Made by a program: the position numbers and the translations under genes
Notes under the pieces: model-generated
Told to the model about the DNA's origin: nothing
The model's database searches: none
Seen by the model: only the letters and a program-made list of their open reading frames with translations
Source: a virus
Length of the DNA stretch: 30,723 nt
Virus record (IMG/VR): IMGVR_UViG_3300050821_002403
Coordinates: 1 to 30,723 of that record
Reading direction: 5' to 3' (one strand)
Shown here: positions 9,124-10,589 of the stretch, in pieces
Layout of the letters: every line of letters begins with the position of its first letter
Position numbering within the stretch: position 1 is the first letter of the stretch

Positions 9124-9606
9124 ATGGCATTGAATTGTCCCGACTGCGGCGAACGCGTTATGAATTTGCGGACGCATGTGTGCAAGGGGACCAAGAGTTC
9201 TCGCGGCGGCATGGAAAGCAGACATGCTGACAACCTCAAGGCCGATACAGGTGGAGCAAGGATCGTACGCCAATCTCCCGTGGAGCGAAATGCGGCCACA
9301 GCCGGAGTAGCGCCCGGCCCGCGAGAAACTAATTCCCGTGCTGCGAGCAGAGCCGTTGAGCGCAAGTCGCCGCTAACTAGCCAACAATCCGATCCGGAGC
9401 GGGTGGCTATAGGCCGAACAGGGAGTTCAAGTCTCCCGACGGGAGCCAATTCAAAGCGTGGGCGACCACGAATTGGCGAGCAACGCGACAAGCCATGGCT
9501 GAAAGCAAAGCCACCGATGAGCGAGCGGACATGGTATCGCCGACGGAAGGAACAAGAAAAATGCGGTATTATGGCGCAAACGCCACCGCGTTTGCAGCTC
9601 TACTGA
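9124..9606 (+). CDS. DNA-binding-like protein with zinc knuckle, 3' end extended by an insertion
   Basis: 160 residues. The N-terminus holds CPDCGERVMNLRTHVC, a compact zinc knuckle. The middle (about 25-110) is Ser/Arg/Ala-rich and unstructured, and includes the stretch encoded by a tRNA-like 3' end. The C-terminus KRGRPRIGEQRDKPWLKAKP followed by SERTWYRRRKEQEK has the form of small phage/integrase-adjacent DNA-binding tails. The last 14 residues (CGIMAQTPPRLQLY) come from the mobile element. Without it the gene would end at the TGA formed across the target site, right after EQEK. Confidence 0.6.
   Translation: MALNCPDCGERVMNLRTHVCKGTKSSRGGMESRHADNLKADTGGARIVRQSPVERNAATAGVAPGPRETNSRAASRAVERKSPLTSQQSDPERVAIGRTGSSSLPTGANSKRGRPRIGEQRDKPWLKAKPPMSERTWYRRRKEQEKCGIMAQTPPRLQLY
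9421..9448 (+). other. tRNA 3'-end-like sequence (T-arm plus acceptor and CCA)
   Basis: GGGAG (9421-9425), loop TTCAAGT (consensus TTCRANY, 9426-9432) and CTCCC (9433-9437) form a perfect 5-bp T-arm. Then come exactly seven bases (GACGGGA), a discriminator G and an encoded CCA (9446-9448). A possible 5' acceptor strand TCCCGTG lies at 9334-9340 (six of seven pairs), but the intervening 115-nt span lacks proper D and anticodon arms, so this is not an intact tRNA. It lies within the coding sequence of the gene at 9124. Confidence 0.45.
9556..9563. repeat. Left copy of 8-bp target-site duplication
   Basis: GAAAAATG immediately left of the element, repeated exactly at 9966-9973 immediately right of it. 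The two copies lie directly against the inverted ends with no extra base, as expected after transposition. Confidence 0.85.
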
Positions 9607-9965
9607 GCAGCGCGTCGGTCATCTCCCGCGCCGTCATTGGCACCTGCGACCGCCGCAGCACGTCCACCGCACTACGGTACAGCGTGCCGCGTTTGAACCA
9701 TGGGTTACCCGTGTTGCGCCGCTTGGGCGCGATGATCCGGACGTTGAAGTCCGGCTTCAACATCTTGATAACGGCCTCCACCTGAATCATCTGGGCGCGC
9801 AGCTTCTCGCCCATGGTGGCGTTGGCCTTGATCCTTCCGGCCAGCTCGGCATGAAGCTGCATTAGCGTGTGGAGGGCTTGCTTGGTCTGGATCGTTGCTG
9901 TCGGCATGGCCCGAAAATAGGCGGGGACGGCTCAAAATTCTTGTGGCGTTTGCGCCATAATACCG
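9564..9965. mobile_element. 402-bp transposon-like element with perfect terminal inverted repeats
   Basis: The first 23 bp (9564-9586, starting CGGTATTATGGCGCAAACGC) are the exact reverse complement of the last 23 bp (9943-9965), and both sides carry an 8-bp direct repeat. Each end itself contains a small dyad, TGGCG-CAAA-CGCCA. The element has no transposase. It carries a single minus-strand gene (9569-9907) whose stop lies in the left end. An 8-bp duplication is compatible with several insertion-sequence families (for example IS6, IS66, ISL3 and IS1595); I cannot assign it. It is best described as a non-autonomous, gene-carrying element moved by a transposase elsewhere. Confidence 0.85.
9569..9907 (-). 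CDS. Passenger gene of the mobile element, 112 aa
   Basis: The product starts MPTATIQTKQALHTLMQLHA. It has a charged helical half, KANATMGEKLRAQMIQVEAV, then IKMLKPDFNVRIIAPKRR, NPWFKRGTLYRSAVDVLRR and PMTAREMTDALLS. From memory, the same order of motifs (helical N-terminus, 'NPWFKRG', then a 'TREI' winged-helix start) occurs in longer hypothetical proteins of Bradyrhizobium-like genomes, so this copy seems cut short. The final residues AVAFAP and the stop are encoded by the inverted end. The ribosome-binding site is weak. It could be a regulator acting on the terminal dyads, but that is inference. Confidence 0.65.
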   Translation of the reverse strand: MPTATIQTKQALHTLMQLHAELAGRIKANATMGEKLRAQMIQVEAVIKMLKPDFNVRIIAPKRRNTGNPWFKRGTLYRSAVDVLRRSQVPMTAREMTDALLSRAANAVAFAP

Positions 9966-10176
9966 GAAAAATGAACGTCAAATACCTCGCGGACGACATT
10001 CTTGAGCGAAACATGTCGGTAAAGATTGGCGGTTGCCCCATCACCGACACGGCAGCGAAACTGATCGGCAACCGGGATTTTTCTTGCAGCATCGGAAGGG
10101 AAAGCGCCTTCTGCGACCCCAGCAACCCCCATATAATGGTAAAGCCGAGCACGAAGGCGATGACGAGTCTGAGCAT
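9862..10176 (-). CDS. Signal-anchored protein, 3' part altered by the insertion
   Basis: Begins MLRLVIAFVLGFTIIWGLLG, a clear membrane anchor or signal sequence, one base after the stop of the membrane peptide gene at 10178. The frame then runs through LPMLQEKSRLPISFAAVSV and crosses into the mobile element near 9965, so the last 35 or so residues (from LWRKRHKNFEPS on) are element-derived. None of the three frames gives a tidy natural end on the pre-insertion sequence, so a frameshift is possible. A plus-strand frame over the same DNA is also open. The N-terminal half is the only confident part. Confidence 0.4.
   Translation of the reverse strand: MLRLVIAFVLGFTIIWGLLGSQKALSLPMLQEKSRLPISFAAVSVMGQPPIFTDMFRSRMSSARYLTFIFPVLWRKRHKNFEPSPPIFGPCRQQRSRPSKPSTR
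9966..9973. repeat. Right copy of 8-bp target-site duplication
   Basis: GAAAAATG, identical to 9556-9563 and adjacent to the right inverted end. In the uninterrupted sequence its ATG would be followed by A, giving the TGA stop of the gene at 9124. Confidence 0.85.
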
Positions 10177-10177
10177 G

Positions 10178-10294
10178 TCAGCCAGCGAGGAAGTTAATCA
10201 GGGATACGATGACGACCACACCGAGGACCACCATGGCCATAATCAGGTACTCGCGCGCCGTCGGGATACGGGTGGGATTGGTTCGCTTTGGCAT
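10178..10294 (-). CDS. Single-pass membrane peptide, 38 aa
   Basis: Minus-strand gene with GAGGT 8 nt before its ATG. The product has a basic N-terminus (MPKRTNPTRIPTAREY) and one transmembrane helix (LIMAMVVLGVVVIVSLINFL), ending in AG, so the N-terminus stays inside. It is followed by the signal-anchored gene and preceded by another membrane gene, forming a three-gene minus-strand operon between the terminase genes. Function unknown. Confidence 0.6.
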   Translation of the reverse strand: MPKRTNPTRIPTAREYLIMAMVVLGVVVIVSLINFLAG

Positions 10295-10364
10295 TCAGCA
10301 ACCTCGGCAGATGCTAGGAGGCGGCGGCTCAGCGGGCGGCAACGGATCGAACCGAGATTGATGG

Positions 10365-10589
10365 CTATCGCCCGAAGTGAAATCCGGAGCTGATCGACCC
10401 GCCCGCGATCATGGAGAGAATGGCGATGATGACGAGTATCAGGACAATCAGCCAGACCATTTGTTGCAGGCGGGCTGGGATCGCGATACCCATGACTTGT
10501 CCGAGAACCCAGAAAACAAAGTAGATGACGGCACAAATGACAATAACGCCTATAAGCAATTGGAGCAGCGCGATGGCAATTCCGATCAT
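10365..10589 (-). CDS. Two-pass membrane protein, 74 aa
   Basis: A perfect AGGAGG lies 7 nt upstream of the ATG on the minus strand, the best ribosome site in the island. Two hydrophobic blocks (IALLQLLIGVIVICAVIYFV and MVWLIVLILVIIAILSMI) are joined by a short loop with IPARLQQ. The tail GGSISSGFHFGR is polar. Small two-helix proteins of this kind are common in phages of Rhizobiales; holin, antiholin or superinfection-exclusion roles are possible. It is divergent to the gene at 10641 with about 50 nt between start codons, so a shared regulatory region is likely. Confidence 0.7.
   Translation of the reverse strand: MIGIAIALLQLLIGVIVICAVIYFVFWVLGQVMGIAIPARLQQMVWLIVLILVIIAILSMIAGGSISSGFHFGR

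Follow-up and report, generated by a model that had tools for sequence, protein, structure and literature searches.

Insertion sequences of the IS1595 family are characterised by an 8-bp target duplication and by the two domains of their transposase (PMC8101967). One of the subgroups named in this family, according to the passages of PMC11891212 and PMC8101967 that refer to Siguier et al. (2009), is ISNha5, an insertion sequence with a transcription regulator as passenger (PMC11891212), and non-autonomous derivatives carrying passenger genes are likewise a described class (PMC3129680, PMC3913671).

The DNA analysed here, called the window in the following, comes from a virus record, is 30,723 bases long and gives matches to terminase, portal and major-head genes; it contains a 402-bp element whose two 23-nt arms are 100% complementary and which is bracketed by a perfect 8-bp duplication, GAAAAATG (Table 1). 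Even with up to three mismatches allowed, the 23-bp end occurs at these two sites only in the whole window, and it was matched in none of 100 dinucleotide shuffles of the window; the G+C content of the element (0.607) is similar to that of the window (0.585). Both arms contain the dyad TGGCG-CAAA-CGCCA. Neither the 402 bp nor the remainder of the 30.7-kb window encodes a transposase (tblastn, best E 0.35), and the element is therefore a derivative of the IS1595 family rather than an autonomous member of it. In all these points (exact inverted ends, duplication, a dyad in each end, absence of a transposase) an earlier sequence-only reading of this DNA was confirmed.

Table 1. Features of the 402-bp element and of the adjoining phage reading frames (positions in the window)
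Feature	Positions	Strand	Basis or remark
Phage ORF interrupted by the insertion	9124..9606	+	joined flanks: ..RRKEQEK-TGA
Left GAAAAATG target duplication	9556..9563	.	sequence; fits family target consensus SRNNNNYS
Left 23-bp TIR	9564..9586	+	putative far end of the parent, apparently joined to the passenger gene by deletion
Deletion junction zone	9587..9628	.	blastn: homology to full-size elements, followed from the right end, stops here
Truncated passenger gene, 112 aa	9569..9907	-	N-terminal long helix and half winged-helix domain (predicted)
Subterminal leader, right TIR to passenger start (CAAGAATTTTGA..)	9908..9942	-	alignment: common to full-size elements
Right 23-bp TIR	9943..9965	-	sequence, perfect complement of left arm
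Right GAAAAATG target duplication	9966..9973	.	contains ATG of next reading frame
Downstream putative phage reading frame	9971..10393	+	ATG overlaps upstream stop in joined flanks (ATGA)

The exact 23-mer end was found in 105 stretches of genome contigs, nearly all from Alphaproteobacteria (Bradyrhizobium, Methylocystis, Mesorhizobium, Caulobacter, Azospirillum and others), and in 16 stretches of viral contigs. Pairing of the ends, with neighbouring chunks of one contig joined, resulted in 45 elements of 46 bp to 6.3 kb, of which 44 have an exact 8-bp target duplication. A transposase of about 327 aa is present in 35 of them, in a few cases as fragments only, and the remaining ten (46 bp to 3.7 kb) are transposase-less derivatives. 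The transposase of the L028 element matches PF12762 (DDE_Tnp_IS1595, 8.8e-37), the zinc ribbon PF12760 (2.5e-9) and NF033547, 'IS1595 family transposase' (9.2e-40); full-size relatives hence combine a DDE transposase carrying an N-terminal zinc ribbon with 8-bp duplications, as known for IS1595. The group probably is ISNha5-like, that is, part of the ISNha5 subgroup, judging from its passenger; no ISNha5 match was obtained on three Nitrobacter hamburgensis plasmids. The sequence-only reading had seen no described family for the element, which does not hold in view of this assignment, while the full-size elements with identical ends and a transposase, which it had named as support for mobility, turned up many times.

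The range of forms within this set is wide. At L046:7782-7827, two ends stand back to back as a 46-bp element with an exact 8-bp duplication (CAAAGTTC); a transposon of this kind could hardly be any smaller. A 3.7-kb transposase-less element at L104:2818-6480 has the same ends around a single gene of 1107 aa, and its duplication contains one mismatch. In the element end at L072:5245-5274, two terminal repeats overlap to give a palindrome over the full 30 bp (CGGTATTATGGCGCAAACGCCATAATACCG). Viral contigs, too, contain relatives that are complete, with transposase and exact duplication (L012:1998-5633 and L008+L011), so that this transposon group enters phages or prophage regions repeatedly.

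A homolog of the small minus-strand ORF of the window element is encoded in 34 of the 35 transposase-bearing elements, and 31 of these 35 also carry a DUF6471 gene (PF20075) of ~79 aa (for example, L028:3877-4116 and L055:4594-4833), so that the two look like a conserved accessory set. The passenger gene still adjoins the transposase in distant elements from Rhodovastum and Microvirga, with 58% and 41% transposase identity, respectively. Its full-length homologs are about 140-155 aa long and share a conserved C-terminal helix and W-x-L strand; in the predicted structure (mean pLDDT 86.6), a long helix (8-50) is followed by a winged helix consisting of helices 76-86, 93-101 and 110-126 and a hairpin at 132-143. 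A fold search against PDB returned general winged-helix matches only (Fur, PerR, Rok, linker histone; best E 0.0096), and family scans gave only weak matches to HARE-HTH and HTH_12.

In gene orientation, the window element can be aligned by blastn, beginning with its first base, to that end of full-size elements which bears the gene (L036 72% over 347 bp, L077 71%, L018 71%, L067 69%, L057 68%); for full-size Bradyrhizobium elements the DNA identity is 67-72% over about 350 bp. This homology stops at element positions 337 to 354, and the stretch from there to the left TIR at position 380, which has no counterpart in full-size elements, forms a short junction directly followed by the opposite 23-bp end; at about 70% identity the exact joint cannot be placed within the junction zone. 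Since homology ends in the middle of the winged-helix domain and the opposite end comes directly next, everything that lies between them in full-size elements is absent, which characterises the 402-bp element as an apparent internal-deletion derivative. Even the closest parent reaches no more than about 72% identity, the direct parent being unsampled.

The last ~5 codons and the stop of the 112-aa ORF are supplied by the left TIR, and its product, which shares 62-66% identity with relatives over about 104 codons, is without the third helix (110-126), the wing and the W-x-L strand; the predicted model of the 112-aa protein becomes disordered after two helices of the winged-helix domain. With third helix and wing lost, a working regulator is unlikely. 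The minus-strand gene of the sequence-only reading is thus an ORF with its stop in the left arm, as proposed, but a C-terminally truncated one rather than a complete gene, and 'regulator-like' befits its winged-helix, DNA-binding-like family but not this copy. A dN/dS of about 0.2-0.3 against relatives mostly records the history of the parent gene before truncation. No homolog of the 112-aa ORF was found in a protein search of viral contigs.

As to the insertion site, the element only replaces the stop of the upstream ORF (9124) and adds 14 codons (CGIMAQTPPRLQLY). In the joined flanks (..GAA AAA TGA ACG..) the upstream TGA overlaps the ATG at 9971, which is retained by the second GAAAAATG copy, and landing on this ATGA stop/start overlap would have limited the damage to the phage; the 9971..10393 frame has no PHROG match. 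The GAAAAATG target fits the consensus SRNNNNYS, found at 33 of the 45 elements versus 1 in 16 by chance, bearing in mind that the consensus was derived from the same 45 elements and that recurrent sites were counted several times. An uninterrupted site in a sister phage would read a single GAAAAATGAACGTC. A search with the large terminase gave one sole relative (L125, 77% identity), which has an unrelated stretch between its two terminase genes and no precise empty site; the joined left flank, searched for exactly, and the interrupted ORF, used as a query for empty-site relatives, gave no match either. No closely related phage with a precise empty site was thus obtained, a point against the explanation preferred below. 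Its view of a transposed, transposase-less element caught in a phage is supported by the target duplication, the relatives and the phage genes in the window.

Taken together, the 402-bp element very probably arose by internal deletion from a passenger-carrying ('transporter') IS1595-family element of Alphaproteobacteria and is non-autonomous, having presumably been mobilised in trans into the phage. The parent would have been about 3-5 kb long, with an end-proximal passenger gene, and would have lost all from inside this gene to the opposite terminal repeat, transposase included, with both 23-bp ends staying intact. As both ends are intact, a transposase acting in trans could move the short form; most likely, one provided by a full-size relative in the host genome would have bound both ends, and the short form would have moved into the phage during infection or lysogeny, generating the 8-bp duplication at the ATGA overlap. 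The deletion could also have come after insertion rather than before: a full-size IS1595-type element would have entered the phage and shrunk in place, the 402-bp form never having moved alone. This scenario, the same account with only insertion and deletion in reverse order, we regard as somewhat unlikely. It agrees with the complete full-size elements and their exact duplications in viral contigs, and with the lack of a second copy of the 402-bp form in 272 genomes of the genus Bradyrhizobium, 399 genomes of the family, plasmids and phages; that the short form has moved more than once would thus be conjecture. However, short forms with fresh target duplications (46, 684, 811, 1050 bp etc.) are common among the relatives, and an addition of 3-4 kb would strain the phage genome, so that the element could at least as easily have arrived in its short form.

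A different role was envisaged by the sequence-only reading, in which the element is a self-sufficient regulator cassette whose protein binds its own dyads and controls its own mobility or phage genes. In favour of this are a perfect dyad near the gene, the predicted winged-helix fold of the full-length family with its weak HARE-HTH matches, and a reading frame that has been constrained, even if mostly before truncation; however, besides the missing third helix and wing of the window copy, the distribution of the dyad argues against its being a binding site of the encoded protein. TGGCG-CAAA-CGCCA is nearly invariant in 159 ends, which is partly so by construction, at least one exact end per locus having been the search key. 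Seven of the ten transposase-less elements are also devoid of the passenger gene, yet keep the dyad ends, while three distant elements, each bounded by an end pair of its own, keep the gene with the TGGCG/CGCCA symmetry broken (Rhodovastum CGGTATCATGTAGCAAGCGCCAC; Methylobacterium CGGCCTTATGGAGCAGATGCACC; Microvirga CGGCATTCGGTAGCAAAAGCCAC); their duplications are exact over 8 bp in two cases and contain a single mismatch in the third. As the dyad occurs without the gene in some elements and the gene without the dyad in distant ones, the simplest reading is that the 23-bp end serves the transposase as its site and that the encoded protein does not need the dyad for binding, which leaves the cassette very unlikely. 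Only slightly less improbable is that the truncated protein is still active, for instance as a dominant-negative partner of the full-length passenger via the intact coiled coil. Its N-terminal helical region is indeed intact and open, with no internal stop accumulated, but there is no evidence of selection after truncation, and one copy only is known. The preferred reading, an internal-deletion derivative moved in trans, would leave the truncated protein without function.

The gene dprA is needed for natural transformation, and 12 of the 45 relatives are inserted at one and the same base of it (..IRSDNVGP^RTF..) in different genera (L028:2934-6587, L077:3631-6833, L044, L060, L063+L095, L067+L026, L027+L105, L074+L041, L076+L084, L108+L081, L111+L065 and L119+L031). 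The interrupted gene was identified by PF02481 and PF21102 in the joined frame, and its hosts are Bradyrhizobium, Methylocystis, Pseudolabrys and other Xanthobacteraceae/Hyphomicrobiales. These insertions occur in both orientations, their exact 8-bp duplications follow the local codons and most of the joined frames are open. Ten further elements are located at two sites of GT2 glycosyltransferase genes, ..LDYP.. (L025, L040, L101, L100+L107, L115+L116, L032+L120) and ..NWLTR.. (L054, L059, L062, L043). Given their exact duplications and open frames, the insertions in both genes seem to be recent and independent; in the transposase tree, dprA insertions do not form one clade, and dprA and GT2 insertions are mixed within the Methylocystis clade. 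Altogether, 22 of the 35 transposase-bearing elements lie in dprA or GT2 genes versus one of the ten transposase-less ones (L092 being assigned to GT2 by eye). A search of 398 genomes of the order for the dprA junction pattern gave one match, already known, so that such insertions are rare per genome.

In the literature, no paper linking dprA with IS1595 elements in this sense was found, the three papers that mention both being, to judge from their titles, about other matters. Mobile elements are known to disable another competence gene, comM (PMC11472951), and the dprA insertions would place a simple DDE transposon among the elements with such an effect. Although the recurrence of insertions at the same base is plain, the part of the passenger in it is conjecture: that this passenger-carrying IS1595-type group homes on single bases of conserved genes (dprA, GT2), with the winged-helix protein helping in target choice or regulating transposition, we consider rather doubtful. 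Taken alone, the window element is an ordinary if neat transposase-less remnant, and it shows that short forms of this kind do get into phages of Alphaproteobacteria. More interesting than the element itself is its family, which is widespread, carries a near-constant, uncharacterised winged-helix passenger and has repeatedly interrupted dprA at the same base across genera.

Compared with known systems, the window element is a real insertion that belongs to a known transposon family and whose passenger gene is broken. With the passenger-carrying members of IS1595 it shares relatives that have identical ends and encode the family's zinc ribbon-DDE transposase, as well as 8-bp target duplications and a regulator-like passenger gene, but in contrast to them it has no transposase. 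Mobile insertion cassettes (MICs) of the MIC231 type (PMC3913671, PMC3129680) resemble it in combining inverted repeats of a known IS, a target duplication and a passenger ORF with the absence of a transposase gene inside; however, MICs hold an intact passenger in place of the transposase, whereas the window ORF is truncated and probably non-functional, and movement in trans is here only inferred. Unlike bacterial MITEs (for example, MITEAba12, PMC6382973), the 402 bp contain a recognisable piece of a gene instead of non-coding filler and are present as a single copy, not in multiple copies, in the genomes, plasmids and phages searched. In length and structure the element nevertheless corresponds to a MITE, being a short form (<~600 bp) derived by internal deletion of an IS, with intact TIRs and a target duplication, and MITEs depend for their movement on a related IS and its transposase. 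On the basis of its alignment with full-size elements, it would therefore stand between a MIC and a MITE.
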